Shown here in pieces: positions 33,650 to 56,514 of a DNA stretch of 64,000 nucleotides. Below the pieces are notes generated by a model. The model was given only the letters and a program-made list of their open reading frames with translations. It was not told where the DNA came from and made no database searches. Origin of the DNA: Kineosporia succinea (GTDB lineage: Bacteria; Actinomycetota; Actinomycetes; Actinomycetales; Kineosporiaceae); assembly GCF_030811555.1 (NCBI RefSeq), contig NZ_JAUSQZ010000001.1, forward strand, positions 5,329,241 through 5,393,240, written 5' to 3'. Both the position numbers and the translations under genes were made by a program. Within the stretch, counting starts at the first letter, position 1. Each line of letters opens with the position of its first letter.

Positions 33650-33789
33650 GAATCGCCGCCGCTCCCTTAGTGGGACCGCCGGGTGCTGTCAAGACGCCCA
33701 AGTATTGCTACAGGCTTGTTAACTGTTCTCCGACCGGCATATTCGCCCAGCGGTCGGAACAATTCACCCCTTCCGCCCGGCTGGGCGCT

Positions 33790-33803
33790 GTGCAATATTA
33801 CTG
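33790..33803 (+). promoter_or_regulatory. 14-bp AT-rich element before the hydroxyproline operon
   Basis: GTGCAATATTACTG ends 2 bp before the GTG start at 33806. It matches 12 of 14 bases at 41706-41719 (GTGACATATTACTG) upstream of the peptide importer. The AATATT/CAATAT core is at -10 distance for a leaderless transcript starting at 33806, so it is likely a promoter core or overlapping operator. Confidence 0.5.
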
Positions 33804-33805
33804 AC

Positions 33806-34978: not shown

Positions 34979-35280
34979 ACCCCCGTCGCGTCCCTGTCGA
35001 GCTCGACCCGGTGCGGCCGCAGGACTCCGGCCCGCTCACCGTCACGCTCGACGGCGAGGAGGTCACCGGCCAGGCCGGGCAGACCGTCGCGGGCATCCTG
35101 CTCGGCGCCGGCCGGGTCTCCTGGCGCACCAGCCGGAACGGCCGTCCGCGGGGCGTGTTCTGCGGTATCGGAGTGTGTTTCGACTGCCTGGTCACGGTCA
35201 ACGACCTGCCCGACGTGCGAGCCTGTCAGCGGCGTGCGCAGGAGGGCGACGTGATCACCACGGGGGTCCAGGATGGCTGA
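34975..35280 (+). CDS. [2Fe-2S] small subunit of the D-hydroxyproline dehydrogenase
   Basis: The protein has 101 residues. GTG 34975 overlaps the preceding stop. It is a plant-type ferredoxin-like domain with cysteines arranged as FCGIGVCFDCLVTV followed by DVRACQR, the four ligands of a [2Fe-2S] cluster. Small subunits of this type bridge electrons between the two flavoproteins of heteromeric amino acid dehydrogenases. It is encoded between them with overlaps of 4 and 8 bp, a strong sign of a stoichiometric complex. Confidence 0.88.
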   Translation: MNPRRVPVELDPVRPQDSGPLTVTLDGEEVTGQAGQTVAGILLGAGRVSWRTSRNGRPRGVFCGIGVCFDCLVTVNDLPDVRACQRRAQEGDVITTGVQDG

Positions 35281-36703
35281 GGTGCTGATCATCGGCGGTG
35301 GCCCGGCCGGGATGGCCGCCGCCGCGGCCGCTCTCGAGGCCGGGGCCCGGGTGACTGTGCTCGAGGCCGGCTACGACCTGGGCGGGCAGTACTGGCGCCA
35401 CCTGGCCGACGGGCGCAGCGGCGCGAACGAGGCCGCGCTGCACCACGGCTGGGACACCTTCCTCGAGCTCAGGCGCACGATCACCGAGGGCTGCGACGTC
35501 GTGCTCGGGGCCCACGTCTGGGCCGTCGACCGCAACGACGACGCGCCGCCCCTCGTGCACGTCATGGTCGGCGCACCCGACGGCACCGACCGCGAACCGC
35601 GCACCTACGCGCCCGACCGGCTCGTCGTCGCGACCGGCGGCCAGGAGCGCACCCTCCCGTTCCCGGGCTGGGACCTGCCCGGCGTCTTCACCGCCGGTGC
35701 CGCCCAGGCCCTGGCCAAGGGCGAGCGGGTGGCGGTCGGGCAGCGGGTGCTGGTGGCCGGGGCCGGGCCGTTCCTGCTCCCCGTCGTCACCAGCCTGATC
35801 CAGACCGGCGCCACGGTCGTCGGCGTCGCCGAGGCCTCCGGCCCGCGGCGCCTGGCGCGAGGCTGGCTCCCGCGCCCCTGGGAACTGCTCGGCACCCGTT
35901 CCAAGGCGACCGAACTCGGTGGCTACGTGCAGGCGATGGCGCGCCACCGCGTCCCCTACTGGACCGGCCGCACCGTCGTCGAGGCCCACGGCACCGACCG
36001 GGTGCGGGCGGTCACACTGGCCGGACTCGATGACGACTGGACGCGCGTACCCGGCTCCGAGAGGGTGATCGAGGTCGACGCCGTCTGTGTCAGTCACGGT
36101 TTCGTCCCACGTACCGAGCTGGCCACCGCGGCCGGGTGCGCGGTTGACGAGAACGGTTTCGTGGTGGTCGATCACGAGCAGAGGACGACCGTTCCCGGCG
36201 TCTTCAGCGCGGGCGAGCTGACCGGGATCGGCGGAGCCGACCTCTCCCTCGCCGAGGGCGAGATCGCCGGGAGCGCCGCGGCCGGGCGACCACCGCGTCC
36301 GCAGGCCCTGGAAAAGCGCCGGCGGTACGCGACCTTCGCCAGCCGCATGCACGCCGCCCACGGCATCCGGCCGGGCTGGCAGACCTGGGCCACGCCGGAG
36401 ACCGTGCTGTGCCGCTGCGAGGACGTCACCGTCGGCGAGGTCCGCGACATCGCCGCGAAAACCGGTGCCCGCGGACTCCGTTCCCTCAAACTCACGACCC
36501 GGGCCGGTCTCGGGCCGTGCCAGGGCCGCACCTGCGGCCGCAACCTCGAGGACATCCTCGTCGTCGAGACGGGCGGCCTGATGCAGGCAGGCCGCACGTC
36601 GCACCGCCCCATCGCCACACCGGTCCGGCTCGGGGAACTGGCCGCGACCCTCACCCCCGCTCCCGCACCCGAACGTGCCCCTGATCGAGAGGACCATCCG
36701 TGA
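35273..36703 (+). CDS. FAD/NAD(P)-binding subunit with BFD-like [2Fe-2S] domain
   Basis: The protein has 476 residues. The Rossmann motif VLIIGGGPAGMAAAAAAL is at residues 3-20, a second nucleotide-binding segment VLVAGAGPFLLPV near residue 160, and a C-terminal BFD-like cluster domain with cysteines in VLCRCEDVT and GPCQGRTCGR. This is the HcnB/large-subunit type of heteromeric D-hydroxyproline or opine dehydrogenases, which passes electrons towards the respiratory chain. The start overlaps the ferredoxin-like gene by 8 bp, and the end overlaps the DapA-family gene by 4 bp. Confidence 0.87.
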   Translation: MAEVLIIGGGPAGMAAAAAALEAGARVTVLEAGYDLGGQYWRHLADGRSGANEAALHHGWDTFLELRRTITEGCDVVLGAHVWAVDRNDDAPPLVHVMVGAPDGTDREPRTYAPDRLVVATGGQERTLPFPGWDLPGVFTAGAAQALAKGERVAVGQRVLVAGAGPFLLPVVTSLIQTGATVVGVAEASGPRRLARGWLPRPWELLGTRSKATELGGYVQAMARHRVPYWTGRTVVEAHGTDRVRAVTLAGLDDDWTRVPGSERVIEVDAVCVSHGFVPRTELATAAGCAVDENGFVVVDHEQRTTVPGVFSAGELTGIGGADLSLAEGEIAGSAAAGRPPRPQALEKRRRYATFASRMHAAHGIRPGWQTWATPETVLCRCEDVTVGEVRDIAAKTGARGLRSLKLTTRAGLGPCQGRTCGRNLEDILVVETGGLMQAGRTSHRPIATPVRLGELAATLTPAPAPERAPDREDHP

Positions 36704-37617
36704 CCACCGACCTCCGTGGCGTCATCGTCGCCACCGCCCTTCCCTACAAAGAGAACCCCTCCGCCCCGGCCGGTCTCGAGGTCGACTACGACAAGTTCGC
36801 CGAGCACTGCGACTGGCTGATCAGCAACGGCTGCCGCGGTGTCGGCCCGAACGGCTCGCTCGGTGAGTACTCCTCGCTCACCGACGCCGAGCGCCGCAAG
36901 GTGATCCAGGTCGCGGTCGAGACCGTCGGCGACCGCGGCGTGGTCGTGGCCGGTGTGCACGGGCCGGGCTGGCACCAGGCGAGGCACTGGGCCGAGCTGG
37001 CCGCCGAAGACGGTGCGCACGGCGTGCTCTCGCTGCCGCCCACCATGTACCGGGCCTCGCCCGCGCAGGTGATCGAGCACTACGAGAAGATCGCCGAGGT
37101 CGGCCTGCCGGTGATGATCTACAACAACCCGATCGACACCAAGGTCGACCTGGTGCCGTCGCTGGTGGCCGAGATCGCCAAGATCCCGAACATCTCGGCG
37201 ATCAAGGAGTTCAGCGGCGACGTGCGCCGCGCGTTCGAGATCTCCGAGCTGTGCGACATCGACATCGTGGCCGGCGCCGACGACGTGCTGTTCGAGCTGA
37301 TGGTCGACGGTGCGGTGGGCTGGTTCGCGGGCTTCCCCAACACCTTCCCGCGCGAGTCGGTCGAGATCTACGACCACATGGTGGCCGGGCGCTACGATCA
37401 GGCCCGCGAGCTGTACCGGCACCTGGTCGCGGTGTTCCGCTGGGACTCGCGCGTGGAGTTCGTGCAGGCGATCAAGCTGGGCATGGAGATGGTCGGGCGT
37501 TACGGCGGCCCGTGCCGCCCGCCGCGGGGCCCGCTCACGCCGGAGCACACCGCGCAGGTGCGGGCCGACATGGAGCGCGCGATCGCGGGTATCGAGTCGT
37601 TGCGGGCCACGGCCTGA
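36700..37617 (+). CDS. DapA-family 1-pyrroline-4-hydroxy-2-carboxylate deaminase
   Basis: The protein has 305 residues of the class I aldolase/DHDPS fold. The Tyr region is MIYNNPIDTK and the Schiff-base Lys (about K169) lies in NISAIKEFSGD. The N-terminal VGPNGSLGEYSSLTDAER resembles the pyruvate-carboxylate-binding loop. In the hydroxyproline operon this family member is the deaminase that converts pyrroline-hydroxy-carboxylate to 2-oxoglutarate semialdehyde and ammonia. The assignment rests on operon position; sequence alone would also allow another DapA-like lyase. Confidence 0.83.
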   Translation: MTTDLRGVIVATALPYKENPSAPAGLEVDYDKFAEHCDWLISNGCRGVGPNGSLGEYSSLTDAERRKVIQVAVETVGDRGVVVAGVHGPGWHQARHWAELAAEDGAHGVLSLPPTMYRASPAQVIEHYEKIAEVGLPVMIYNNPIDTKVDLVPSLVAEIAKIPNISAIKEFSGDVRRAFEISELCDIDIVAGADDVLFELMVDGAVGWFAGFPNTFPRESVEIYDHMVAGRYDQARELYRHLVAVFRWDSRVEFVQAIKLGMEMVGRYGGPCRPPRGPLTPEHTAQVRADMERAIAGIESLRATA

Positions 37618-38618
37618 TGAGGTCGAAACGGCTCTTCACCGCGGTCGACTCGCACACCGAGGGCATGCCCACGCGGGTCGTCACCGGGGGAGTGGGGGTG
37701 ATCCCGGGCGCCACCATGAACGAGCGGCGCCTGCACTTCATCGCGGAGATGGATCACGTGCGCCGGTTCCTGGTGAACGAGCCGCGCGGGCACGCGGCGA
37801 TGAGCGGCGCGATCCTGCAGCCGCCCACCCGCCCGGACGCCGACTTCGGGGTGCTCTACATCGAGGTCTCCGGCTGCCTGCCGATGTGTGGGCACGGAAC
37901 CATCGGGGTGGCAACGGTTCTGGTGGAGACCGGCATGGTCGAGGTGATCGAGCCGGTCACCACGATCCGGCTCGACACCCCGGCCGGGCTGGTCGTCGCG
38001 AAGGTGGCCGTCAGTGACGGCCACGCCGACAGCGTGACCCTCGAGAACGTCCCCTCGTACTGCGAACGGCTCGACGAGACGATCGAGGTGCCCGGTCTCG
38101 GGGCCGTGCCCTACAGCCTGGCCTTCGGCGGGAACTTCTACGCCATGGTCGATCTCGACGCGGTGAACCTGCCGTTCGACCGGTCGCGACAGCAGGAGAT
38201 CCTGGGCGCGGGGCTGGCGATCATGAACGCGATCAACCTTCAGGCGCCGCCGAAGCATCCCCAGATCGAGGGTGTGAACCACTGCCACCACGTGGAATTC
38301 ATCGCCCCGGGCTCCGACGCGGTGCTGTCGCGGCACGCGATGGCCATCCATCCGGGCTGGTTCGACCGTTCGCCCTGTGGCACCGGAACGTCCGCCCGGA
38401 TGGCCGAGCTGCACGCGCGCGGTGAGCTGCCCCTGCACCAGGACTTCGTCAACGAGAGCTTCATCGGCAGCCGCTTCACCGGGCGGCTGATCGGCGAGAC
38501 CACCGTCGGCGGGCTGAAGGCCGTGCTGCCGACCATCACCGGACGGGCCTGGGTCACCGGCATCGGGCAGTACCTGCTCGACCCGAGCGACCCGTACCCG
38601 GAGGGTTTCGAGTTCTGA
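37617..38618 (+). CDS. 4-Hydroxyproline 2-epimerase (proline racemase family)
   Basis: The protein has 333 residues. ATG 37617 shares one base with the preceding stop (TGATG). Both catalytic cysteines are present: Cys91 in LPMCGHGTIGVAT and about Cys253 in DRSPCGTGTSARMAEL. Two cysteines point to a racemase/epimerase rather than a trans-3-hydroxyproline dehydratase, where the second is threonine. It should convert trans-4-hydroxy-L-proline to cis-4-hydroxy-D-proline, the substrate of the flavin complex encoded upstream. Confidence 0.9.
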   Translation: MRSKRLFTAVDSHTEGMPTRVVTGGVGVIPGATMNERRLHFIAEMDHVRRFLVNEPRGHAAMSGAILQPPTRPDADFGVLYIEVSGCLPMCGHGTIGVATVLVETGMVEVIEPVTTIRLDTPAGLVVAKVAVSDGHADSVTLENVPSYCERLDETIEVPGLGAVPYSLAFGGNFYAMVDLDAVNLPFDRSRQQEILGAGLAIMNAINLQAPPKHPQIEGVNHCHHVEFIAPGSDAVLSRHAMAIHPGWFDRSPCGTGTSARMAELHARGELPLHQDFVNESFIGSRFTGRLIGETTVGGLKAVLPTITGRAWVTGIGQYLLDPSDPYPEGFEF

Positions 38619-38630: not shown

Positions 38631-40025
38631 ATGAGCAAGGACGACATGACCTCCCTCGACAAGGTACTGAGCGCGGCCGCGGCCGTCCCGCTGACCGGCG
38701 CCCGGGCGGCCACGCCGACCGACCGGGCGGGCTGGCTGGACGCCGCCGCCGACGCGCTCGACGCGGCGGCCGACGAGCTGATCCCGTTGGCGCACAGCGA
38801 GTCCCACCTGCCCACGGCCCGGCTCACCGGTGAGCTGAAGCGCACCACGTTCCAGGCCCGGCTGTTCGCCGACGCCCTGCGCACCGGTGCCCTCACGCCC
38901 AGCCGGGTCGACCCGCCGGAGGCGAACTGGGGCAGCGGTCCCCGGCCCGACCTGCGGCGCGGTGTGGTCCCGCTGGGGCCCGTGCTGGTGTTCGCCGCGA
39001 GCAACTTCCCGTTCGCGTTCAGCGTGTTCGGCGGTGACACGGTGTCGGCGCTGGCGGCCGGCTGCCCGGTCGTGGTGAAGGCGCACCCCGGGCATCCGGA
39101 ACTGTCACGGCGCACGGCCGCGCTGGTCGCGGACGTGCTGCCGGAGGGGATGTTCGCACTCGTCGAGGGCGTCGACCCCTCGCTCGCGGCGCTGCGTGAT
39201 TCCCGGATCAAGGCAGTCGGTTTCACCGGTTCCACCGCCGGTGGGCGGGCTCTGTACGACATCGCGGTCTCGCGTCCGGAGCCGATCCCGTTCTACGGCG
39301 AGCTCGGCAGCGTGAACCCGGTCGTGGTCACGCCCGAGGGCTGGGCCGAGCGCGGACCGGACATCGTCGCCGGCTGGCTCGACTCGCTGCTGCTCGGATC
39401 CGGCCAGTTCTGCACGAATCCGGGCCTGGTCTTCGTGCCCGACGCCGACTCCTTCCTGGCCTCGGTCTCCCTGGCCGAGCCCGGCCGGATGCTGAACTCC
39501 CGCCTGGAAGAGGGTTTCCGGGCGTCGACGGACGTGGTGGCCGGGTTGCTTGGGATCGTCGAGGCGGTCTCGGGGCCGGCGAACGAGCAGGGCGTGGCGG
39601 CGCGGGTCTTCCGCACCACCGTCGCGGAGCTCGACCCGAAGGCTCTGGAGACCGAGATGTTCGGCCCGGCCGGGCTGGTGGTCGAGTACGGGTCGGCGCA
39701 GGAGCTGGCGGACGCCCTGGGCACGGTTCCGGGGCAGCTCACCGGGTCGGTTCACGGCACGGCGACGGGGGACGCGGTGGCCGCCGAGGCGGTCGCGGCG
39801 CTGAGTTCCCGGGTCGGCCGGGTGCTCTACAACCAGTGGCCGACCGGCGTGAGCGTGAGTGCCGCGCAGCAGCACGGAGGCCCGTACCCCGCGTCCACCA
39901 GCCCGCTGACGACCTCGGTGGGGCTCGCCGCGATCGAGCGGTTCCAGCGGCCGGTCGCTTTCCAGGGGTTCCCCGAGAGCCTGCTGCCGGCCGAGCTGCG
40001 TACGGCGGACAGCCGGGGTGAGTAG
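38631..40025 (+). CDS. 2-Oxoglutarate-semialdehyde dehydrogenase
   Basis: The protein has 464 residues of the 2,5-dioxovalerate dehydrogenase class of ALDH, which is shorter and diverged at the N-terminus (SHLPTARLTGELKRTTFQ). FAASNFPFAFSVFGGDTVSALAAG is the class-specific cofactor region; the general base is the Glu in PFYGELGSVNP and the nucleophile is about Cys261 in GSGQFCTNPGL. It oxidises 2-oxoglutarate semialdehyde with NAD(P)+ to 2-oxoglutarate, completing the hydroxyproline pathway and feeding the TCA cycle. Confidence 0.9.
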   Translation: MSKDDMTSLDKVLSAAAAVPLTGARAATPTDRAGWLDAAADALDAAADELIPLAHSESHLPTARLTGELKRTTFQARLFADALRTGALTPSRVDPPEANWGSGPRPDLRRGVVPLGPVLVFAASNFPFAFSVFGGDTVSALAAGCPVVVKAHPGHPELSRRTAALVADVLPEGMFALVEGVDPSLAALRDSRIKAVGFTGSTAGGRALYDIAVSRPEPIPFYGELGSVNPVVVTPEGWAERGPDIVAGWLDSLLLGSGQFCTNPGLVFVPDADSFLASVSLAEPGRMLNSRLEEGFRASTDVVAGLLGIVEAVSGPANEQGVAARVFRTTVAELDPKALETEMFGPAGLVVEYGSAQELADALGTVPGQLTGSVHGTATGDAVAAEAVAALSSRVGRVLYNQWPTGVSVSAAQQHGGPYPASTSPLTTSVGLAAIERFQRPVAFQGFPESLLPAELRTADSRGE

Positions 40026-40059: not shown

Positions 40060-40725
40060 GTGACGTCGCACATCGGACCGGTCGCCGCGGGCTCGAGCCT
40101 GCGCGGGACGGTCGAGGAGGCCCTGGCCTCGGCGATCGTGTCCGGTGAGCTGGCCCCGGGCACGCTGCTGACCGCGCCCACGCTCGGGGCCCGCTTCGGG
40201 GTCTCGGCGACCCCGGTGCGCGAGGCGATGCTGAACCTGGCCAAGCGCGGGTTCGTCGAGACCGTGCGCAACAAGGGTTTCCGGGTCACGGACGTCAGCG
40301 AGCAGGACCTCTGGGAGATCGTGCGCATCCGGCAGCTGCTCGAGGTGCCCCCGATGCGCGACATCGCGCGCATCCTGCAGCCGTACGCCGCGGTCGAGCT
40401 GCGCGAGAAGGCCGCGCTGATCGTGAAGTCCGCAGCCTCGGCCGACATCCCGACCTACCTGGCCGCCGACGTCGACTTCCACCTGGCCCTGCTCCGGCTC
40501 ACCGGCAACGACCGCCTGGTCGAGCTGGTGCGCGACCTGCGTCAGCAGACCCGCATGGTGGGGTTGGCCAACCTGATCGGCTCGGACGAACTGGCCCGCT
40601 CGGCCGGCGAGCACCTGCAGCTGATGGACCTGCTCGAGGCCCGCGACGGCCGCGGCGCCGAACAGCTCATGCACTCGCACATCGAGCACGTGCTCGGCTG
40701 GTGGAGCGGACGCGACGAGGCCTGA
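40060..40725 (+). CDS. GntR-family (FCD) regulator of the hydroxyproline operon
   Basis: The protein has 221 residues and starts at GTG 40060 with GGGAGGG close by. The winged HTH includes LRGTVEEALASAIVSGELAPG, LGARFGVSATPVREAMLNLAKRGFVE. The FCD ligand domain follows, with DVDFHLALLRLTGNDRLVEL carrying the usual Asp/His metal-ligand positions and a second His in MHSHIEHVLGWW. Such regulators respond to pathway acids. As the last gene of the hydroxyproline cluster it is the probable local regulator, perhaps also of the importer operon. Confidence 0.87.
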   Translation: MTSHIGPVAAGSSLRGTVEEALASAIVSGELAPGTLLTAPTLGARFGVSATPVREAMLNLAKRGFVETVRNKGFRVTDVSEQDLWEIVRIRQLLEVPPMRDIARILQPYAAVELREKAALIVKSAASADIPTYLAADVDFHLALLRLTGNDRLVELVRDLRQQTRMVGLANLIGSDELARSAGEHLQLMDLLEARDGRGAEQLMHSHIEHVLGWWSGRDEA

Positions 40726-40741
40726 GAGCGCCCGGGTGGCC

Positions 40742-41705: not shown

Positions 41706-41719
41706 GTGACATATTACTG
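41706..41719 (+). promoter_or_regulatory. 14-bp AT-rich element upstream of the peptide importer
   Basis: GTGACATATTACTG matches the element at 33790-33803 in 12 of 14 bases. If it is the promoter core here too, the importer mRNA has a leader of roughly 225 nt before GTG 41949. Confidence 0.45.
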
Positions 41720-41948
41720 TTCCACCCAGTGACCGGCATTACCCCATAAATCCCGGCACCTGTCGTGACCCGTGGGGCGCGCCTGACGGCCGCCCTCCTG
41801 CCCGGGCCTCACGTCCCGCCTGTCTCCCCACGTATCCCCGGCGTGGATCTTTCGCACCGCGAGAACGACTTTCGCTGATCTCGACGCAACGCGCACCGGC
41901 ACCGCCCCCTCGCGACCCGGTCCGCGTCATCCCGGAAGGCAGAACCCC

Positions 41949-43655
41949 GTGAAGAGAAGCACTCCCCGGACGGCCCTGGGCCTGGTGATGGCCTCGGCCC
42001 TCGCCCTGTCGGCCTGTTCCGGCGGCTCGGCCGGCGGCAGCACCAGCGGTGCGGGCGGCAGCAGCGAGACCCCGCGCAAGGGCGGCACCGTGCAGGTGCT
42101 GCAGAACGCCGACTTCTCGTACCTCGACCCGACCCGGGGCTGGGACGGCGGCGTCAACTCGTTCTACCGCCTCGTCTACCGCACGCTCGTCACCAAGGCC
42201 GCCAACGACGCGTCCGACCCCAACGCGATGGTGCCCGACCTGGCCGAGTCGCTCGGGAAGGTCTCCGACGACGGCAAGACCTGGACCTACACGCTGAAGG
42301 AGGGCGTCAAGTTCGACACCGGCGCCGCGATCACCTCCAAGGACGTGAAGTTCGGCATCAGCCGCAGCTGGGACCCCGAGATCGGCATCGGCTCGCCCTA
42401 TCTCAAGCAGGTCATCGACGCGCCGAAGGACTACGAGGGCCCCTACCGGTCCGGTGATCTCGACACCATCGAGACGCCCGACGACCGCACGATCGTCTTC
42501 CACCTGAAGGAAGCCTTCCCCGAGTTCGACGCCGTGCTGTCGATGCCGAGCGGCACGCCGTTCCCGGAGGGCACCGGCAAGGGCGACGAGTTCATCAACG
42601 ACATCGTCGCCTCCGGCCCCTACGACCTGGAGAAGTTCACGCCCGGCAGCGTGATCCAGCTGAAGCGCAACCCGGAGTGGGACGCCTCCACCGACGAGCA
42701 GCGCAAGGCCTACCCCGACAACTGGACCTTCACCATCGGCATCGACGGCGCCACGATCGACGAGCGCCTCATCGCCCAGCAGGGCAGCGACATCAACTCG
42801 ATGACCAGCGCCCCGAGCATCCAGACGGCGACCATCGCGCGTATCCAGACGCCCGCCCTGCAGCAGAGACTGGTCAAGAACCCGTCGACCTGCCTCACCT
42901 ACATGGGGCTGAACACCACCAAGAAGCCGCTGAACGACGTCAAGGTGCGTCAGGCGATCGAGTACGCGGTGGACAAGAGCAGCGTGCTGAACGCCGCCGG
43001 CGGAACGCAGTTCGCGACCGTGGCGAACACGATCATCCCGAGCACGGTCTCCGGTCACAAGGACTTCGACCTGTACCCGAGCGAGGGTGGCAAGGGCGAC
43101 GTCGAGAAGGCCAAGGCCCTGCTGGCCGAGGCCGGTCAGGACGGCGGGTTCGAGCTGACCCTCGACATCCGCGCGAACCCGGTGATGCAGCGCCAGGGCG
43201 AGGCGATCCAGCAGGCCCTGCAGAAGGTCGGCATCGACGTGAAGCTCAACGTCATCGACGTCTCGACCTACTACGAGACCATCGGCACCCCGTCGCAGCA
43301 GCACGACGCCGCGATCACCGGCTGGTGCCCGGACTGGAACTCCAGTGCCTCGACCTTCCTGCCGCCGCTGTTCGACGGCCGCAACATCTACGACAAGGGC
43401 AACTCGAACCTGGCCCAGCTCGACGACCAGGCCGTGAACGACGCGATCGACGCGGGCAAGAAGCTCACCGACATCGACGCGGCCAACACCGCCTGGGGCG
43501 CCCTCGACGAGCAGATCATGCAGCTCGCGCCGGTCGTGCCGCTGAACGTCGAGAACCGGCTCTACCTCCCGGGTGAGAACCTCGGCGGGTTCATCACCCC
43601 GAGCGGCGACATCGACTACACCATCATCGGGCTCAAGGACCCGTCGCGGGGCTGA
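41949..43655 (+). CDS. Peptide-type ABC transporter substrate-binding lipoprotein
   Basis: The protein has 568 residues and starts at GTG 41949, with SD GGAAGG upstream. The signal peptide ends in lipobox LSAC (Cys near residue 23), followed by a Ser/Gly linker and the SBP family 5 fold: GGTVQVLQNADFSYLDPTRGWD, MVPDLAESLGKVSDDGKTWTYTLKEGVKF, and the C-terminal lobe with VRQAIEYAVDKSSVLNAAGG. The family binds di- and oligopeptides, and sometimes glycans or glycopeptides. It leads a seven-gene overlapping operon with two permeases, two ATPases, a proline-specific peptidase and an arabinofuranosidase, so the cargo may be glycosylated proline-rich peptide. Confidence 0.9.
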   Translation: MKRSTPRTALGLVMASALALSACSGGSAGGSTSGAGGSSETPRKGGTVQVLQNADFSYLDPTRGWDGGVNSFYRLVYRTLVTKAANDASDPNAMVPDLAESLGKVSDDGKTWTYTLKEGVKFDTGAAITSKDVKFGISRSWDPEIGIGSPYLKQVIDAPKDYEGPYRSGDLDTIETPDDRTIVFHLKEAFPEFDAVLSMPSGTPFPEGTGKGDEFINDIVASGPYDLEKFTPGSVIQLKRNPEWDASTDEQRKAYPDNWTFTIGIDGATIDERLIAQQGSDINSMTSAPSIQTATIARIQTPALQQRLVKNPSTCLTYMGLNTTKKPLNDVKVRQAIEYAVDKSSVLNAAGGTQFATVANTIIPSTVSGHKDFDLYPSEGGKGDVEKAKALLAEAGQDGGFELTLDIRANPVMQRQGEAIQQALQKVGIDVKLNVIDVSTYYETIGTPSQQHDAAITGWCPDWNSSASTFLPPLFDGRNIYDKGNSNLAQLDDQAVNDAIDAGKKLTDIDAANTAWGALDEQIMQLAPVVPLNVENRLYLPGENLGGFITPSGDIDYTIIGLKDPSRG

Positions 43656-43656: not shown

Positions 43657-44604
43657 ATGACCATCCCCTCGACCGGTCTGACGGTGCCGGCGGAATCCGA
43701 GCAGGAGACCGCCGGCACCACCCCGCAGGCACGGGGCCGCGTCCTGAAGACGCTGCTGCGTGACCCGGCCGCCGTCGCGTGCGCGGCCTACATCGGCCTG
43801 ATCGTGCTCATGGCCGTCTTCGCCCCGCTGATCGTGAAGATCAGCGGCTGGAGTCCCTACGAGTTCGACCAGAGCGCCATCGACGCCAACATGGGCGGCA
43901 TCCCGCTCCACGGCTTCTCCCGTGAGCACTGGCTCGGCGTCGAACCCGGCACCGGGCGGGACGTGTTCGCACGCATCGTCTACGGCGCCCGGTCGTCCAT
44001 GCTCATCGCGGTCTCGGCCACGGTCCTCACCAGCGTGCTCGGAGTCGTCTTCGGGCTGCTGGCGGGCTATTTCGGTGGACGCACCGACATGGTGATCTCA
44101 CGGGTGATGGAGTTCCTCATGGCCTTCCCCGCGCTGATCTTCATGATCGCCGTGCTCTCAGCGATGCCCGCCGACAACCGGCAGTACCTGCTCGTCGTGG
44201 TCATCTCGGTGTTCGGCTGGCCCTACCTGGCGCGGATCGTGCGCGGGCAGACCATGTCGCTCAAGGAACGCGAGTTCGTCGAGGCCGCCGTGGCTTCCGG
44301 CGCCTCGCGGGCCACGGTCGTCTTCACCGAGATCCTGCCCAACCTGCGCTCGACCATCCTGGTGATGGTCACGCTCGCGGTGCCCGGCTACATCGGCACC
44401 GAGGCCGGGCTCAGCTTCCTCGGCGTCGGGGTGGTTCCGCCGACCCCGAGCTGGGGGCAGATGATCTCGAGCTCGGTGCTCTGGTACTCGGTCGTGCCCC
44501 TGTACTTCCTGGTGCCCGGCGTGTTCCTGGCGCTGCTCGTGCTGTCGTTCATGGTTCTCGGTGACCGCATCCGCGCCGTGGTGGACCCGGGAGGTCGCTC
44601 GTGA
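43657..44604 (+). CDS. Peptide ABC transporter permease, DppC type
   Basis: The protein has 315 residues. A polar N-terminal tail of about 30 residues and an N-terminal OppC-like helix are followed by five or six transmembrane helices, with the ATPase-coupling EAA loop EREFVEAAVASGASRATVVFTEILPNL. ATG 43657 begins one base after the preceding stop. The usual order in such operons is DppB then DppC; here the DppC-type gene comes first. Confidence 0.88.
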   Translation: MTIPSTGLTVPAESEQETAGTTPQARGRVLKTLLRDPAAVACAAYIGLIVLMAVFAPLIVKISGWSPYEFDQSAIDANMGGIPLHGFSREHWLGVEPGTGRDVFARIVYGARSSMLIAVSATVLTSVLGVVFGLLAGYFGGRTDMVISRVMEFLMAFPALIFMIAVLSAMPADNRQYLLVVVISVFGWPYLARIVRGQTMSLKEREFVEAAVASGASRATVVFTEILPNLRSTILVMVTLAVPGYIGTEAGLSFLGVGVVPPTPSWGQMISSSVLWYSVVPLYFLVPGVFLALLVLSFMVLGDRIRAVVDPGGRS

Positions 44605-45590
44605 CGAAGTACGTCGTGAACCGCGTCGCCGGAATGGTTCTCGTCCTGTTCGGGGTCTGCCTCTTCACCTACATGGTCTTCTTCCTGCTCTCGCCCGACC
44701 CGGCGGTGCAGATCTGCGGCAAGAACTGCACCCCCGAGCGCATCGACCAGATCCGCGAGAACCTGGGCCTGAGCGATCCGTTCGTCACCCAGTTCCTCAA
44801 CTTCCTGCGCGGGCTCTTCGTCGGCCGGGAGTACGACGGCGGGATCAGCTGCCCGGCACCGTGTCTGGGCTACTCGTTCCAGACCTCGCAGGTCGTCACC
44901 GACATGATCGTGCAGCGTCTGCCGGTCACCGCCGTCGTCGCGATCGGCGCGGCCGTGCTCTGGCTGCTCATGGGCGTGATCGGTGGTCTGGTCAGCGCGG
45001 TGCAGGAAGGCAGATTCGCCGACCGCTTCATCGCCGGGCTGACGCTCGGCGGCATGTCGGTGCCCAACTACGTTCTGGCGCTGGCGCTCCAGTACGTCTT
45101 CGTGGTCTGGCTGCAGTGGCTCCCGTTCCCGCAGGCGGTGCCGTTCGCCGACGATCCGGTGCAGTGGTTCCTCAACTTCATCCTGCCCTGGTCGGTGCTG
45201 GCGATCGGCTACGCGGCCTCGTACACGCGGCTCACCCGGGCCAACGTGATCGACACGCTCGACGAGAACTTCGTGCGCACCGCTCGCGCCAAAGGGCTGC
45301 GCCCGGACCTGGTCTGGCGGCGGCACGCCCTGCGCCCGGCCCTCACACCGATCGTCACCATCGCCGGCATGGACTTCGCCGGCCTGCTCGGTGGCGCTCT
45401 GATCACCGAGACCGTCTTCGGCATCAACGGGGTGGGCAAGCTGGCCGCCGACTCGATCACCAAGAACGACCAGCCGGTCATCATGGCCGTCACGCTGCTC
45501 GCCGCGTTCTTCGTGGTGGTCGGCAACATGGTGGTCGACCTGCTCTACTCGGCGATCGACCCGCGCGTCCGGGTGGGGGTGTCGGCATGA
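44601..45590 (+). CDS. Peptide ABC transporter permease, DppB type
   Basis: The protein has 329 residues. It has the typical DppB N-terminus (VVNRVAGMVLVLFGVCLFTYMVFFLL), an extracytoplasmic loop with two cysteines (QICGKNCTPERIDQIRENLGL), and a second Cys pair (ISCPAPCLG) that may form disulfides. The membrane domain has the EAA loop VRTARAKGLRPDLVWRRHALRPAL. GTG 44601 overlaps the preceding stop, and its own stop overlaps the next start. It pairs with the DppC-type subunit. Confidence 0.88.
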   Translation: MTKYVVNRVAGMVLVLFGVCLFTYMVFFLLSPDPAVQICGKNCTPERIDQIRENLGLSDPFVTQFLNFLRGLFVGREYDGGISCPAPCLGYSFQTSQVVTDMIVQRLPVTAVVAIGAAVLWLLMGVIGGLVSAVQEGRFADRFIAGLTLGGMSVPNYVLALALQYVFVVWLQWLPFPQAVPFADDPVQWFLNFILPWSVLAIGYAASYTRLTRANVIDTLDENFVRTARAKGLRPDLVWRRHALRPALTPIVTIAGMDFAGLLGGALITETVFGINGVGKLAADSITKNDQPVIMAVTLLAAFFVVVGNMVVDLLYSAIDPRVRVGVSA

Positions 45591-46402
45591 GTCTGCTGTC
45601 CGCCCAGGGCCTTACGGTCAGTTTCGGAACGACGGACGTGGTGGCCGGCATCGATTTCGAGGTCCCCGCGGGTGGGACGCTGGGAATCGTCGGTGAGAGC
45701 GGCTCGGGCAAGTCGATGACCAGCCTGGCGATCATGGGGCTGCTGCCCGCGTCGGCCCGGCGCTCGGGGCGCATCGACTTCGACGGCACCGACCTGACGT
45801 CACTGCCGGAGCGCCAGATGCGCGCCGTGCGCGGCAACCGGATCGCGATGGTGTTCCAGGACCCGCTCTCGTCGCTCAACCCCTACTACACGGTGGGCAC
45901 GCAGATCGCCGAGGCGTACCGGTCGCACCGGTCGGGCGTCAGCCGTAAAGCCGCCCGGCAGGCGGCGATCGAGGCGATGGAACGGGTGCACATCAAGGAC
46001 GCCGGCCGCCGGGTCGACGACTACCCTCACCAGTTCTCGGGTGGCATGCGCCAGCGCGTGATGATCGCGATGGCCCTGTCGACCGAGCCGGAGCTGATCA
46101 TCGCCGACGAGCCGACCACGGCCCTCGACGTGACCGTGCAGGCCCAGATCCTCGACCTGCTCGCCGAGGTGCGCCGCGACACCGGCGCTGCGCTCATCCT
46201 CATCACGCACGACCTCGCCGTGGTCAGCGAGGTGGCCGACCAGCTGATCGTCATGCGCGACGGCTCGGTGGTCGAGAGAGGTTCCGCCGAGCGGATCTTC
46301 TCCGACCCGCAGCACGCCTACACGCAGGCGCTGCTCGACGCGGTTCCCCGCATCGACGACAGCATCGGCGAACTCCGCACCACCACGGGAGGCCCGGCAT
46401 GA
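45587..46402 (+). CDS. Peptide ABC transporter ATPase, DppD type
   Basis: The protein has 271 residues. Walker A GESGSGKSM, Q-loop MVFQDPLSSLNPYYTVGTQIAE, signature FSGGMRQRVMIAMAL, Walker B LIIADEPTTALDVTVQAQIL and H-loop LITHDLAVV are all intact. The C-terminal extension of the Opp/Dpp type is short, ending soon after DPQHAYTQALLDAVPR, so it probably lacks the iron-sulfur Cys cluster found in longer homologues. ATG 45587 overlaps the permease stop (ATGA). Confidence 0.9.
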   Translation: MSLLSAQGLTVSFGTTDVVAGIDFEVPAGGTLGIVGESGSGKSMTSLAIMGLLPASARRSGRIDFDGTDLTSLPERQMRAVRGNRIAMVFQDPLSSLNPYYTVGTQIAEAYRSHRSGVSRKAARQAAIEAMERVHIKDAGRRVDDYPHQFSGGMRQRVMIAMALSTEPELIIADEPTTALDVTVQAQILDLLAEVRRDTGAALILITHDLAVVSEVADQLIVMRDGSVVERGSAERIFSDPQHAYTQALLDAVPRIDDSIGELRTTTGGPA

Positions 46403-47262
46403 CGCTCCTCGCAGCCCAGGAGCTGGTCAAGGAGTTCGACGTGGCGGGCACGGCCGGGCTGGTCAGACCGGCCCGGCGGTTCACGGCCGTCGACCACGTC
46501 TCGTTCGAGCTGCACGCCGGCCAGACCCTGGCGCTGGTCGGCGAGTCCGGCTCGGGCAAGTCGACCACCGCGCGCCTGGCCGCCCGGCTGATCGACGTCA
46601 CCTCGGGCACGGTGCTCCTCGACGGCCAGGACGTCACCACGCTGTCCGGCGCCGACCTGCTCGAGGTCCGGCGTCAGGTGCAGATGGTGTTCCAGGACCC
46701 GTTCTCGTCGCTCAACCCGCGGCACACCGTGGAGCGCATCGTCACTGCGCCCCTGCGCTACCAGAAGCGGCCGATGCCGGGCGGCTCGCGGGCCGTGGCG
46801 CAGGGCCTGCTCGAACGGGTGGGCCTGGATCCCGGGCACGTCGACCGGTACCCGGCCCAGTTCAGCGGTGGTCAGGCCCAGCGCATCGGCATCGCCCGGG
46901 CCCTCGCCGTCGGCCCCCGCGTGCTGGTCTGCGACGAGGCCGTGTCCGCGCTGGACGTCTCGGTGCAGGCCCAGATCATCAACCTGCTGCGCACGCTGCA
47001 GCGGGAGGAGGGATTCGGCTGCCTCTTCATCGCGCACGACCTGGCCGTGGTGCGCCAGATCGCGACCACGGTGGCGGTGATGACGGCGGGCCGGGTGGTC
47101 GAGACCGGGCCGCGTGACGCGGTGTTCGACGACCCGCAGCACGAGTACACCCGCAAGCTGCTCGCCGCGGTGCCCCGGATCCGCCCCGAGTGGGAGGCGG
47201 CCCGGCGGCACAACGCGGGGGCCCGGCTCGAGACGACCACGTCCACGCCCAGGGGAGAGTGA
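46399..47262 (+). CDS. Peptide ABC transporter ATPase, DppF type
   Basis: The protein has 287 residues. Walker A GESGSGKST, MVFQDPFSSLNPRHTVERI, signature FSGGQAQRIGIARAL, Walker B LVCDEAVSALDVSVQAQII and FIAHDLAVVRQI are complete. It forms the heterodimeric motor with the DppD-type subunit. ATG 46399 overlaps the preceding stop by 4 bp. The C-terminus DPQHEYTRKLLAAVPRI is typical of DppF. Confidence 0.9.
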   Translation: MTLLAAQELVKEFDVAGTAGLVRPARRFTAVDHVSFELHAGQTLALVGESGSGKSTTARLAARLIDVTSGTVLLDGQDVTTLSGADLLEVRRQVQMVFQDPFSSLNPRHTVERIVTAPLRYQKRPMPGGSRAVAQGLLERVGLDPGHVDRYPAQFSGGQAQRIGIARALAVGPRVLVCDEAVSALDVSVQAQIINLLRTLQREEGFGCLFIAHDLAVVRQIATTVAVMTAGRVVETGPRDAVFDDPQHEYTRKLLAAVPRIRPEWEAARRHNAGARLETTTSTPRGE

Positions 47263-47267
47263 CTCCG

Positions 47268-48677
47268 ATGACCAGCACACCCAGCTTCGTGACCACCACG
47301 CCGCCCGGTCCGGCCGGAGAGCGACCGGTCGGGGCGGGCACCCGTCCGCCGCGGCTGTCCGAGCAGAGCACCGGCTTCCAGAGCTGGATCAGCCAGGGCT
47401 GGGAAGACCGCCCGGTGCCCGCCCCGGTGAACGCCGCCGCCGCGCAGGCCGCCGCCGACCACCGGGACCGCCTCAGCGCCGCGCTGCCCGGGCGCACCCT
47501 GGTGCTCGCCTCCGGCGCCGCCCGCAACCGCAACGGGGACGCCGACTACGCCTTCCGGGCCGACAGCGACTTCGTCTGGGCCACGAGCTGCCAGGCCGAG
47601 GGCTCGGTGCTGGTGATGACCCCGCACGGCACCGGTCACGACGCGACGCTCTACCTGCCCCCGCCCGCCCGGCCCGGTGAGAAGGACTTCTACGCCAGCG
47701 CCGCGCACGGCGAGCTCTGGGTCGGGCCCAGCGCCGGGCTCGCCGAGTGGGCCGCGGCTCTCGGGGTGAGGGTCCGTCCGGTCAGCGAGTTCGTCGCCCC
47801 CGACGGCGTCGACGAGGCCGAGACCGCCGAGGTGGCCTCCGACCTGCGCATGATCAAGGACGACTGGGAGATCGCCCAGCTCCGCGAGGCGATCGACGCC
47901 ACCGTGGGCGGTTTCGCGGCGGTGGCCGGCGAGCTGCCGCGGGTGCTGGCCGAGAACCTCGGCGAGCGCTGGCTGCAGGGCACGTTCGACCGGCACGCGC
48001 GGACGTTCGGCAACGGCCCGGGCTACGCGACCATCGTGGGGTCCGGGCCGCACGCGCCGATCCTGCACTGGGTGCGCTGCGACGGCCCGGTCCTCCCCGG
48101 CGAGACGCTGCTGCTCGACATGGGGGTGGAGGCCGACTCGCTCTACACGGCCGACGTCACCCGCACGATCCCGGCGAGCGGGGAGTTCACCGGGATCCAG
48201 CGCGCCGTGCACGATCTGGTCGAGGCGTCGCACCGGGCGGGCATGGCCCAGGTGCGGCCCGGGGCCCAGTACTCGGACTTCCACTTCGCCTCGATGGAGA
48301 TCATCGCCCGGGGTCTGCACGACTGGGGTCTGCTGCCGGTCTCGGTCGACGAGGCCCTGTCGCCGCAGGGGCAGCAGCACCGCCGCTACCTGGCCTGCGG
48401 CGTCGGGCACCACCTGGGTCTGGACGTGCACGACTGCGGGATGTCCGTCTACGACAAGTACCACGGCGCTCCGCTGCAGGCAGGCATGGTGCTGACCGTG
48501 GAACCGGGCCTGTACTTCCACGCCCACGACGAGACCCTCCCGCCCGAGCTGCGGGGTATCGGCGTGCGCATCGAAGACGACCTGCTCGTCACCCCGGGCG
48601 GCCACGAGGTGCTCTCCGGCGCGCTGCCGATCGACGCGGCGGGCCTGGAGAAGTGGACCCGGGAGCAGACGCGGTGA
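47268..48677 (+). CDS. M24B aminopeptidase P (Xaa-Pro aminopeptidase)
   Basis: The protein has 469 residues. An AMP_N domain (about 50-220; YAFRADSDFVWAT) precedes the pita-bread M24 domain. All metal ligands are visible: Asp pair in LLLDMGVEADSLYTADVTRTI, His in GVGHHLGLDVHD, Glu in LTVEPGLYF and Glu in GVRIEDDLLVT. Aminopeptidase P removes N-terminal residues before proline. No signal peptide is seen, so it works on imported peptides. Its place between the peptide importer and a GH127 enzyme, near hydroxyproline genes, suggests Xaa-hydroxyproline or Xaa-Pro peptides as substrates. The stop overlaps the GH127 start (GTGA). Confidence 0.9.
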   Translation: MTSTPSFVTTTPPGPAGERPVGAGTRPPRLSEQSTGFQSWISQGWEDRPVPAPVNAAAAQAAADHRDRLSAALPGRTLVLASGAARNRNGDADYAFRADSDFVWATSCQAEGSVLVMTPHGTGHDATLYLPPPARPGEKDFYASAAHGELWVGPSAGLAEWAAALGVRVRPVSEFVAPDGVDEAETAEVASDLRMIKDDWEIAQLREAIDATVGGFAAVAGELPRVLAENLGERWLQGTFDRHARTFGNGPGYATIVGSGPHAPILHWVRCDGPVLPGETLLLDMGVEADSLYTADVTRTIPASGEFTGIQRAVHDLVEASHRAGMAQVRPGAQYSDFHFASMEIIARGLHDWGLLPVSVDEALSPQGQQHRRYLACGVGHHLGLDVHDCGMSVYDKYHGAPLQAGMVLTVEPGLYFHAHDETLPPELRGIGVRIEDDLLVTPGGHEVLSGALPIDAAGLEKWTREQTR

Positions 48678-51355
48678 CCCTGGCCCGTCCGTTCGCCCTG
48701 TCCGACGTCACCCTGAATCCCGGGGTGCAGTCGCGCGCGCAGGACCAGATGCTGCACCTGGCCCGGGTCTACCCGGTCGACCGGGTGCTGGCGGTGTTCC
48801 GCGCCAACGCCGGCCTCGACACGAAAGGCGCTCAGCCCCCGGGTAACTGGGAGGACTTCGGTCACCCCGACGAGCAGCCCTGGTCCGGGGCCGACTACCC
48901 GGGCGCCGGGGTGGCACCCACGGCGAGCCTGCTGCGCGGGCACTACGCCGGGCACTTCCTGTCGATGCTGGCCCTGGCCCACGCCTCCACCGGTGAGGCG
49001 GTGTTCCGGGAGAAGACCGGGGAGATGGTCGCCGGGCTGGCCGAGGTGCAGCGGGAACTGGCCGCCACCGGGCGGTTCAGTCATCCCGGTTTCCTCGCGG
49101 CCTACGGGGAGTGGCAGTTCGACCGGCTCGAGCACCTCGCGCCCTACGGTGAGATCTGGGCGCCCTGGTACACCACGCACAAGATCATGGCGGGGCTTCT
49201 GGACGCCCACGAGCACGTCGGTTCGCAGCAGGCCGTCGAGGTGGTCACCTCGATGGGGCACTGGGTCGTGCAGCGCATGGCCCGGCTGGAACGGGCCCAG
49301 GTGCAGAGGATGTGGTCGCTGTACATCGCCGGTGAGTACGGCGGCATGAACGAGAGCCTGGTGGCGCTGTACCGCGTCACCGGTGAGAAGTCCTTCCTCG
49401 AGGCGGCTTCGGCGTTCGAGATGGACAGCCTGCTCGACGCCGCCTCGTCCGGTGCGGACGTGCTCGACGGGATGCACGCCAATCAGCACCTGCCGATGCT
49501 GGCCGGGCACCTGGCGCAGTACCAGGCCACCGGCGAGAAGCGTTACCTGGAAGCGGTGGTCAACCTCTGGGAGCAGATCGTCCCGGGGCGCACCTTCGCG
49601 CACGGCGGCACCGGTGAGGGGGAGCTGTGGGGCCCGGCCGGGGTGGTGGCGGGATTCGTCGGGCGCCGCAACGCCGAGAGCTGTGCCGCCTACAACCTGC
49701 TGAAGATCGCGAAGGGCCTGTTCGGGCTGACGCTCGACGTGCGGTACGCGGACTACGCCGAGCGGGCCGGGCTCAACCACCTGGTGGGCGCGCGGGCCGA
49801 CGTCACGTCCGACGTGAGCCCGGAGGTCGTCTACATGTACCCGGTCGACGCCGGGGCCGTGCGCGAGTACGGCAACGTGGGCACCTGCTGCGGCGGCACC
49901 GGCCTGGAAACCCATGTGAAGCACCAGGAATCGGTGTTCTTCGCGGCGCCCGGCGAGCTGTTCGTGCTGCAGTACGTGCCCTCGCGGCTGGAGTGGGCGG
50001 ACGCGGGTGGCTCGGTCACGCTCGACACCCGGTACCCGCGCGAGGGGCAGGTGACGCTGACACTCGAGGTGTCCGGACGGCTCGACCTGCACCTGCGGAT
50101 CCCGGAGTGGGCGCGGGGCCGTGAGCGGGTCGTCGCACCGGGTGCCGTGATCAGCCGGCCCCGGGCCGGGTTCGTCACGGTGTCCCGGGAGTTCAGCCCC
50201 GGCGACACGGTCGGCCTCGAGCTGCCGCTCCCGCTGCGGCTGGTGCCGGCGCCCGACGACCCGTCCCTCGTCAGTCTCGAGCTGGGCCCGACGGTGCTGC
50301 TGGCCCGCGACGACGCGACCACCACGCAGACGGTGGCCCCGGCGGCGCTGCGGCGGCTGGACGGCAGTCTCGACGGCTTCACCCGCGACGGTGATCTGGT
50401 CACGGTGCTCGGGCGCACGTTCGAGCCGGCCTGGTCGGGGGGCGATCATCGCTACCACCTCTACCTGCGGCTGGCCGATGAGCGGATCGCGTTCCTCGGC
50501 AGCGACTCCGGTGTCCCGAACCGGCACGACCAGCACGGGTGGTCGTTCCTCGGGGCGCTGTGGGGCGAGGGCGGCTACGGGTCGGTGGAGGACTTCTTCT
50601 CAGCGGTGCACCGGCACGTGATCACGGCGGCCCGGACCGGTCTGCTGAGTGGTGCCGAGCTGGGCGCGGTGCTCGGGGCGGCGGCGGAGAGCACGCTCGA
50701 CGATCCGGTGGTGCGGCGGCGGGGCACGACCGACCCGCATCGTCCCGGCGGCACTCCCTTCGAGGGCGGCCGGGTGCGGCGGTCGGAGGAGCCGACGGAG
50801 GACGTGGTGGTCTGGGAGGTTCCGGACGACCTGCTGAGCGGTGAGGCGGCCCCGGTGATCCGGGTGGACGTCACGGGGGAGCGGGCCCCCTCGGGCTGGT
50901 ACACCAGTGCCCCGGCGTGCGCGGCCACGGTGGTCTCGGCCGGGTCCGGCGTCACGGTGCTCGAGATCGCCGACGGAGACGCGTGGCGGACGGGGATCGG
51001 GCTCCCGGCGCTCGACGACGGGCGTCACCTGGTGCGGGCGCGGGCGAGCGACGGCCTGGGGCGCACGGTGTACGCCGAGCGCGAGGTCGCGGTCGACACC
51101 ACGCCTCCGGTGCCACGCATTCGGGTGCGGTCGCTGGGCAGCAGCAGCGTGGAGGTGACGCTCGACGCGGTGGACGAGGTGTCCGGCGTGGACCGGATCC
51201 AGTGGCGCACGGCGGAGACCTTCTGGGGTGTCTACCAGGAGCCGTTCACCCGGGCCCTGCACGACCGGCCGCAGACGCTCGAGGTGACGGCCACCGACCG
51301 GGCCGGCAACGTGAGCCCGGTGCAGACGGTCGAGCTCCCGGCGATCGGGGCCTGA
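48674..51355 (+). CDS. GH127 beta-L-arabinofuranosidase with C-terminal Ig-like domain
   Basis: The protein has 893 residues. The GH127 (formerly DUF1680) module covers about residues 1-620. Conserved active-site elements: EIWAPWYTTHKIMAGLLDAH, acid/base Glu likely E317 in GEGELWGP, Zn ligands E335 and C337 in NAESCAAYN, and Zn ligand/nucleophile cysteines C405-C406 in VGTCCGGTG. In characterised GH127 enzymes one cysteine of this pair is the nucleophile. The C-terminal 200 residues hold an Ig-like or OmpL47-like fold (DEVSGVDRIQWRTAE; VTATDRAGNVSP). No signal peptide follows GTG 48674, so it should be cytoplasmic. Known GH127 activity includes beta-L-arabinofuranose linked to hydroxyproline; some members act on rhamnogalacturonan II sugars. 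Confidence 0.88.
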   Translation: MTLARPFALSDVTLNPGVQSRAQDQMLHLARVYPVDRVLAVFRANAGLDTKGAQPPGNWEDFGHPDEQPWSGADYPGAGVAPTASLLRGHYAGHFLSMLALAHASTGEAVFREKTGEMVAGLAEVQRELAATGRFSHPGFLAAYGEWQFDRLEHLAPYGEIWAPWYTTHKIMAGLLDAHEHVGSQQAVEVVTSMGHWVVQRMARLERAQVQRMWSLYIAGEYGGMNESLVALYRVTGEKSFLEAASAFEMDSLLDAASSGADVLDGMHANQHLPMLAGHLAQYQATGEKRYLEAVVNLWEQIVPGRTFAHGGTGEGELWGPAGVVAGFVGRRNAESCAAYNLLKIAKGLFGLTLDVRYADYAERAGLNHLVGARADVTSDVSPEVVYMYPVDAGAVREYGNVGTCCGGTGLETHVKHQESVFFAAPGELFVLQYVPSRLEWADAGGSVTLDTRYPREGQVTLTLEVSGRLDLHLRIPEWARGRERVVAPGAVISRPRAGFVTVSREFSPGDTVGLELPLPLRLVPAPDDPSLVSLELGPTVLLARDDATTTQTVAPAALRRLDGSLDGFTRDGDLVTVLGRTFEPAWSGGDHRYHLYLRLADERIAFLGSDSGVPNRHDQHGWSFLGALWGEGGYGSVEDFFSAVHRHVITAARTGLLSGAELGAVLGAAAESTLDDPVVRRRGTTDPHRPGGTPFEGGRVRRSEEPTEDVVVWEVPDDLLSGEAAPVIRVDVTGERAPSGWYTSAPACAATVVSAGSGVTVLEIADGDAWRTGIGLPALDDGRHLVRARASDGLGRTVYAEREVAVDTTPPVPRIRVRSLGSSSVEVTLDAVDEVSGVDRIQWRTAETFWGVYQEPFTRALHDRPQTLEVTATDRAGNVSPVQTVELPAIGA

Positions 51356-55468: not shown

Positions 55469-55478
55469 TGCGGTGTGA

Positions 55479-56489: not shown

Positions 56490-56514
56490 GCTTCGTCCTT
56501 CGTGATGTGGATGA

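Follow-up and report, generated by a model that had tools for sequence, protein, structure and literature searches.

An apparently cytosolic GH146-like beta-L-arabinofuranosidase with an OmpL47-type tail, encoded beside a dipeptide-type importer in Kineosporia succinea

We analysed a stretch of 64,000 nucleotides (the window) from the actinomycete Kineosporia succinea (contig NZ_JAUSQZ010000001.1, positions 5,329,241 to 5,393,240; the host genome is 8.07 Mb in one contig), and within it an open reading frame (ORF) of 893 codons that overlaps the gene of an M24 Xaa-Pro aminopeptidase-like enzyme. Its product resembles beta-L-arabinofuranosidases of glycoside hydrolase (GH) family 146, carries two OmpL47-type modules at the C-terminus and appears to be kept in the cytosol. 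Together with the neighbouring genes, it suggests that arabinosylated hydroxyproline (Hyp) peptides are probably imported whole, deglycosylated in the cytosol and digested by Pro-specific peptidases. This proposal is built on gene order, conservation, the signal-less N-terminus, phylogeny, a homologous module adjacent to the enzyme in sister loci, and co-occurrence; from these we infer location, substrate, transport cargo, reaction order, direction of the fusion and the role of the tail.

The importer and a signal-less arabinofuranosidase travel together

Loci were sampled by the M24 peptidase and not by the glycosidase. Homologues of at least about 57% identity from searches of 394 and 356 genomes gave 24 loci, and nine homologues at 47-50% identity were left out. 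Dpp genes were called orthologous when the solute-binding protein (SBP) was at least 50% and DppB at least 60% identical. All 11 loci with orthologous Dpp carried exactly one signal-less beta-L-arabinofuranosidase, a tailed GH146 in six cases and a GH127 in five, and 11 of the 13 loci without it carried neither enzyme (Fisher's p = 3e-5, a value which ignores kinship). The exceptions among the 13 were L033, whose contig ends at the M24 gene, and L162, with a sugar-type ATP-binding cassette (ABC) importer alongside. The importer and a signal-less arabinofuranosidase travel together, whichever family supplies the enzyme, beside Pro-type peptidases and often beside Hyp catabolism.

A signal-less GH127 takes the place of the tailed GH146 in the same cassette at L144 (1116-3152), L145 (16042-17982), L142, L169 and L170. 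The swap is an apparent non-orthologous replacement; the GH127 genes lie upstream of the SBP gene, and their products have no signal-like N-terminus and contain PF20737 in 5/5 cases.

The M24 gene adjoins the GH146 version at 25 of 26 loci, the 26th (L054, Kineococcus) being a relative outside the operon with a signal of the twin-arginine translocation (Tat) type. The SBP-DppCBDF genes were found at 23 of the 25 M24-bearing loci, and the remaining two are cut by contig ends. A gene for an alpha/beta hydrolase was present in 24/25 operon loci (L033 is cut), between DppF and M24 where looked at; it matched Abhydrolase_1 above and the S33 profile Hydrolase_4 below the cut-off, and by its motifs we take it to be prolyl aminopeptidase-like.

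A model of HypBA2 (GH121) gave no match in all eight genomes with the GH146 version (G000-G005, G504, G685), and matched in both sister genomes described below (G054, G287). Among the five GH127-cassette genomes its matches were strong in G334 and G182 and fragmentary in G259, with no match in G263 and G032. These results bear on another explanation, in which the importer takes free beta-arabino-oligosaccharides, as in Bifidobacterium longum, the enzyme cleaves sugars only, and the peptidases independently handle unglycosylated peptides. HypBA1 of B. longum is indeed intracellular and acts on imported beta-arabinobiose (beta-Ara2) (PMC7263609), and the sugar-type importer stands beside a GH146-M24 pair at L162. 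However, Pfam assigns the transporter of the window to the dipeptide/oligopeptide type, almost every orthologous glycosidase gene overlaps the gene of a Pro-type peptidase, and the arabinobiosidase of the HypBA2 type, which would free beta-Ara2, was the enzyme that gave no match in the eight genomes. We thus regard import of free sugars as improbable.

The enzyme appears to be kept inside the cell

An earlier note on this DNA had placed the start of the enzyme in a GTGA overlap with the peptidase gene and had found no export signal. The overlap proved exact: the GTG start shares bases with the M24 stop codon TGA (48675-48677), and the ORF and its length were confirmed. A start codon within this 4-nt overlap (NTGA), at the aligned start or ahead of it, is found at 22 of 25 operon loci. 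The NTGA of L039 and L055 falls about five codons within the aligned region, and L038 is without the overlap, its GTG coming after a 9-nt gap. In-frame stops occur 5, 34 and 36 codons upstream of the start in L038, L035 and L032, respectively, so that a hidden signal would hardly fit there, if at all.

Hydropathy was scored for the most hydrophobic stretch of 12 residues that any upstream start could bring in; among 27 operon loci, the window not included, it did not exceed 1.45 and had a median of 0.87. For comparison, the values were at least 2.07 in 29 SBP lipoproteins (31 loci tried) and at most 1.31 in 32 M24 proteins. In eleven relatives outside the operon clade, a twin-arginine motif (RRxx-hydrophobic) occurs together with a hydrophobic stretch of 1.38-2.13; the motif was not found in the operon N-termini of 25 loci. 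An upstream start encoding a signal peptide, which the earlier note had named as a finding that would overturn its view, was looked for across the operon loci and none was found. We rejected a hidden start on the strength of the conserved overlap, the upstream stops, the N-terminal hydropathy and the missing motif, and the absence of an export signal can be maintained.

An Ig-like (immunoglobulin-like) tail would suggest a protein at work on the cell surface, exported either by a non-classical route or because its true start has been misjudged; we regard this as very improbable. Such a location would agree with the OmpL47-type modules on apparently secreted proteins beside the exported sisters, and with the GH146 enzyme Bll3HypBA1, which combines Ig-like domains with a signal peptide and a membrane anchor (PMC10850190). 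However, a surface-anchored type of this kind, with signal peptide and anchor, does not describe the window protein: no signal-like segment was found at the N-termini, no C-terminal membrane segment was seen by eye in the 893-residue translation, and the upstream stops in relatives and the conserved overlap speak against another start. In addition, OmpL47 matches above the cut-off were confined to this protein in the four genomes searched, with two further sub-threshold places in G000. The idea that the tail is a common surface module of the genus was thus not supported. In our reading the tail is not a surface anchor.

The catalytic domain is closest to GH146

The enzyme has the PF07944 domain and the Glu-x-Cys and Cys-Cys pattern of a predicted zinc site, which place it in clan GH-P (GH127/GH146). 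Residues E317, E335, C337, C405 and C406 are invariant in 27 aligned sequences, and the last four match the pattern in the alignment to Protein Data Bank (PDB) sequences; the roles given to these candidate active-site residues are taken from PMC10850190. In the full-length model, parts of the catalytic region, among them residues 305-336 and 370-408, fall below 50 in the predicted local distance difference test (pLDDT).

The enzyme had been called GH127, a label which turned out to be inexact. In a phmmer search against solved structures, GH146 entries scored best (5opj, 5.5e-53; 8k7y, 4e-45) and GH127 trailed well behind (4qjy, 1.3e-15). BT0349 (GH146) was the best sequence match of a profile search (E 3.9e-87), structural comparison gave Z of 32.1 and 28.3 for GH146 vs at most 27.0 for the others including GH127, and the GH127 C-terminal domain PF20737 was not reported for the window protein by Pfam up to E 0.1. 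The GH127 identity was therefore replaced by GH146-like, meaning nearer to GH146 than to GH127 in sequence and fold and not a formal CAZy assignment. We infer that it acts as a beta-L-arabinofuranosidase of the retaining type, and its active site is predicted to be of the Zn-Cys3-Glu kind.

The C-terminal tail is conserved

The tail had been described as Ig-like and as extending over residues 650-893. Its predicted fold is indeed Ig/FnIII-like (fibronectin type III), but the family is the OmpL47-type domain of NCBIfam (NF047446, 47.3 bits at residues 824-887, cut-off 40), and Pfam Big_13 (PF19077) stayed below its gathering score (22.7 bits vs 27). As to its extent, structure models and alignment give two beta-sandwiches, at about 727-808 and 809-889, in place of a single domain at 650-893. 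A tail-only model from 25 sequences had a mean pLDDT of 94.4 and formed an all-strand pair of sandwiches. Its PDB matches (BIg of SiiE, 2yn5, Z 9.7; PKD, 6aem, Z 9.8; many FnIII/Ig pairs) tell the fold and not the function. Loop 848-856 is of low confidence in the full model and of high confidence in the tail-only one, and we draw nothing firm from it.

NF047446 matched all 27 aligned sequences at E of at most 0.01, as well as L161 and, below the cut-off (30.4 bits), L162. Mean pairwise identity was highest in the barrel (0.74), followed by the second module (0.68), and was 0.47 in both the middle domain and the first module; 27/81 residues of the second module are invariant vs 11/125 of the middle domain. 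Such conservation of the second module supports use of the tail, and a lid or substrate-orienting role is our guess. The tail could also be a functionless leftover of a fusion, kept for folding or solubility alone. In favour of that explanation, the two exported sisters do without the tail, and so does the Pfam architecture of the five GH127s in cassettes, whose last domain is PF20737. However, the second module is more conserved than the middle domain and the tail is matched in every aligned orthologue, so we consider a functionless tail rather unlikely.

The orthologues form one clade with exported sisters

Orthologues are 50-77% identical and come from six families: Kineosporiaceae, Micromonosporaceae, Streptomycetaceae, Pseudonocardiaceae, Microbacteriaceae and Glycomycetaceae. 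A quick tree of 65 rows gathered the 27 operon sequences in a single clade with a support of 100 in the SH-like approximate likelihood ratio test (SH-aLRT), the only support computed in this quick search, in which long branches meet among distant rows. The rows nearest to the clade are L009 (support 87) and then L058 (together 100); both have Tat-type signals and their matches stop near query residue 673-676. Outside the clade the N-terminus was readable in 17 relatives, of which 11 were of Tat type and six were not, a survey that leaves out the LamG-bearing relatives L061-L079 and L083, whose matches begin near residue 111-160.

At the sister loci L009 (G054) and L058 (G287) there are genes for a HypBA2/GH121-like protein (1.6e-181 in G287), a GH43, the Tat-type GH146 and an OmpL47 protein. 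The last is encoded directly downstream of the GH146, with a 4-nt ATGA overlap in G054 and an ATG within a few bases in G287, and its N-terminus, judged by eye, is signal-like, so that it is apparently secreted. No OmpL47 match was found in the exported GH146s of L009 and L058 themselves. The neighbour's OmpL47 pair is 47% identical to the window tail over 170 columns in G054 and 31% over 186 in G287; against the tail of Glycomyces L043 the values are 50% and 34%. The two genes follow each other as their counterparts do along the operon protein from N- to C-terminus, which is most simply read as a fusion on the operon branch. The tail thus looks like the product of a gene fusion that took in an adjacent, apparently secreted protein from an extracellular locus for Hyp-arabinosides. 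The apparent fusion of neighbouring genes suggests that the module works with the enzyme.

Loci L112 (G287) and L113 (G054) are actinomycete loci with a GH121 HypBA2-like gene, GH43, a Tat-type GH146 and an apparently secreted OmpL47 protein.

Proposed route and comparison with known systems

The dipeptide-type ABC transporter would import arabinosylated Hyp peptides, fragments of extensin-like plant glycoproteins, and the cytosolic GH146-like enzyme would strip beta-L-arabinofuranose from their Hyp. Deglycosylation may then let the Xaa-Pro aminopeptidase of the overlapping gene and the prolyl aminopeptidase-like alpha/beta hydrolase free Hyp, which would enter an epimerase-oxidase-deaminase-dehydrogenase pathway. 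The enzyme probably descends from one that was exported by Tat and belonged to an extracellular Hyp-arabinoside locus; it would then have lost its signal and been fused with the OmpL47-type protein next door. The tail most likely packs on or near the active site, where it may orient or limit the substrate. The earlier note had suggested that a cytoplasmic location would fit uptake of intact glycopeptides, and comparative evidence backs such a route: the conserved signal-less start, the dipeptide-type importer, the Pro-type peptidases, Hyp catabolism and the lack of a GH121 match.

The closest known enzymes are built and placed differently. Bll3HypBA1 of B. longum (GH146; 8k7x/8k7y) shares the catalytic fold (Z 28.3, 537 residues aligned, root-mean-square deviation (rmsd) 3.0), the Zn-Cys3-Glu type residues and Ig-like C-terminal domains. 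Unlike the window protein, it has a signal peptide, LamG domains and a membrane anchor, is a cell-surface enzyme specific for beta-1,3-arabinofuranose, and is placed by arabinogalactan-protein and GH43 gene clusters (PMC10850190). BT0349 of Bacteroides thetaiotaomicron (GH146; 5opj/6yqh/8qf8) is the best fold match (Z 32.1, 546 aligned, rmsd 2.9; with 8qf8 the alignment spans residues 1-874 of the window protein, a range that gives first and last residues only) and likewise has a helical linker followed by a C-terminal beta domain. That domain, however, is no OmpL47 pair: it is a jelly roll of CBM35-like type, reported to lie over the active site (PMC10850190). BT0349 belongs to a rhamnogalacturonan I (RG-I) locus.

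The HypBA1 system of B. longum (GH127 HypBA1, GH121 HypBA2, GH43 HypAA and a sugar ABC importer) also has an intracellular beta-L-arabinofuranosidase for sugars of Hyp-rich glycoproteins. In that species the sugar is cut off outside and beta-Ara2 is imported (PMC7263609; the bifidobacterial sugar route is also treated in PMC5928203), whereas here the predicted cargo is a glycopeptide whose peptide is digested too. A GH127 for extensin and separate peptide transporters have been proposed in Latescibacteria (PMC4454575). Papers that connect Hyp with arabinofuranosidase, with extensin, with transporters, with peptidases or with its catabolism did not, judged by title and opening of the abstract, describe a cassette of the present kind, as far as this partly covered literature goes, and the print record may hold one. 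To the wider claim, namely an undescribed intracellular actinomycete route for plant Hyp-rich glycoproteins with a dedicated dipeptide-type importer, for which a GH127 or a Tat-less, OmpL47-fused GH146 was recruited in parallel, the module now being part of the substrate site, we give about an even chance.

Several observations weigh against whole-peptide import by a signal-less, tail-assisted enzyme. The hydropathy range of the operon N-termini overlaps that of weak Tat-type signals (at most 1.45 vs 1.38-2.13). The overlap start of L041 and L042 and the upstream start of L161 add about 35-42 residues before the domain, which are not signal-like by eye, and the more distant L010-L014 and L020 also have no Tat-type signal, so that the lack of a signal is shared by other members of the wider family. 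The 2x2 test lacks phylogenetic independence, since a single genus supplied five of the six GH146 cassettes and a second genus three of the five GH127 ones. Among the 13 loci without orthologous Dpp, four (L148, L165, L166, L168) have less similar Dpp-like genes nearby, and other glycosidases would escape a survey with two glycosidase queries. L162 (G685) combines the GH146-M24 pair and Hyp genes with a sugar-type ABC importer replacing Dpp, which fits sugar uptake too. As to the tail, its similarity to the G287 neighbour is modest (31%), several Glycomyces orthologues are without the helical segment that would position a lid, and its absence from the exported sisters, with no OmpL47 match reported in the one GH127 scanned, indicates that it is not needed for the chemistry.

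If the proposed glycopeptide route is true, arabinose removal, peptide import and Hyp catabolism would be joined in one pathway, a specific transporter would be named for glycosylated peptides, and the two interchangeable enzyme families, GH146 and GH127, would serve as an internal control. A module usual on secreted proteins would have been fused into an apparently cytosolic enzyme under strong constraint, with a function testable by deletion.

Gene neighbourhood

Bacterial L-hydroxyproline catabolism proceeds through an epimerase, an oxidase, a deaminase and an alpha-ketoglutarate semialdehyde (alpha-KGSA) dehydrogenase. These gene families lie upstream of the importer in the window (Table 1), and here, unlike in the known pathway, genes for a peptide importer, for peptidases and for an arabinofuranosidase go with them. 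The window genome also has araA.

Table 1. Features of the enzyme gene and its neighbourhood (positions in the window)
Feature	Position	Strand	Remarks
Signal-less GH146-like beta-L-arabinofuranosidase, C-terminal OmpL47-type tandem	48674..51355	+	893 aa, GTG start
Candidate ribosome-binding site GGGAG	48661..48665	+	8 nt ahead of GTG; read from sequence
PF07944 catalytic (alpha/alpha) barrel, residues 11-419	48704..49930	+	Pfam, E 1.6e-73
E317 (aligns with Glu of GH146 5opj; putative acid/base) and E335/C337 (Zn-Cys3-Glu type site)	49622..49684	+	Alignment
C405-C406, predicted Zn ligand and cysteine nucleophile pair	49886..49891	+	Alignment
PF20736 middle beta-sandwich, residues 429-519	49958..50230	+	Pfam
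Helical segment, residues 613-675	50510..50698	+	Alignment, models; missing in several Glycomyces orthologues
First Ig-like/OmpL47-type module, residues 727-808	50852..51097	+	Alignment and models; no profile report in window protein
Second OmpL47-type module, residues 809-889	51098..51340	+	NF047446; 27/81 residues invariant
M24 Xaa-Pro aminopeptidase-like gene	47259..48677	+	Start GTG 47259 (overlaps preceding stop) or ATG 47268
Dipeptide-type ABC transporter ATPase, DppF-like	46399..47262	+	Pfam
Dipeptide-type ABC transporter ATPase, DppD-like	45590..46402	+	Pfam
ABC permease, DppB-like	44601..45590	+	Pfam
ABC permease, DppC-like	43657..44604	+	Pfam; start ATG 43657
Family 5 SBP, lipoprotein-like N-terminus	41949..43655	+	Pfam, translation
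GntR/FCD regulator	40060..40725	+	Pfam
Aldehyde dehydrogenase family, probably alpha-KGSA dehydrogenase	38631..40025	+	Putative Hyp role, from context
Proline racemase family, putatively hydroxyproline 2-epimerase-like	37251..38618	+	ORF longer than gene; domain at residues 132-453
Dihydrodipicolinate synthase (DHDPS) family, putatively pyrroline-4-hydroxy-2-carboxylate deaminase-like	36700..37617	+	Family match
FAD/NAD oxidoreductase with BFD [2Fe-2S] domain	35273..36703	+	Family match
D-amino acid oxidase (DAO) family FAD oxidoreductase, putatively D-hydroxyproline oxidase/dehydrogenase-like	33683..34978	+	Family match

The prolyl aminopeptidase-like hydrolase is present in one copy in each of six same-genus genomes; two of them (G001, G004) have it inside the cassette and the other four at another place. 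At the window junction 47259-47262 its gene is absent; it is present in the same genome at L141, beside a second M24 gene (76% identity), and this second hydrolase-M24 pair has neither importer nor glycosidase.

Upstream of the Hyp genes, positions 29439-30818 hold a gene for a 2-oxoadipate dioxygenase/decarboxylase (HGLS, PF07063). Between the GntR and SBP genes (40726-41948) there are low-complexity repeats, one frame of which reads as Asp-Gly-Val runs. On the minus strand, 53354-57345 carries probable iron-siderophore uptake genes (binding protein, fused permease and ATPase), named from translations only.

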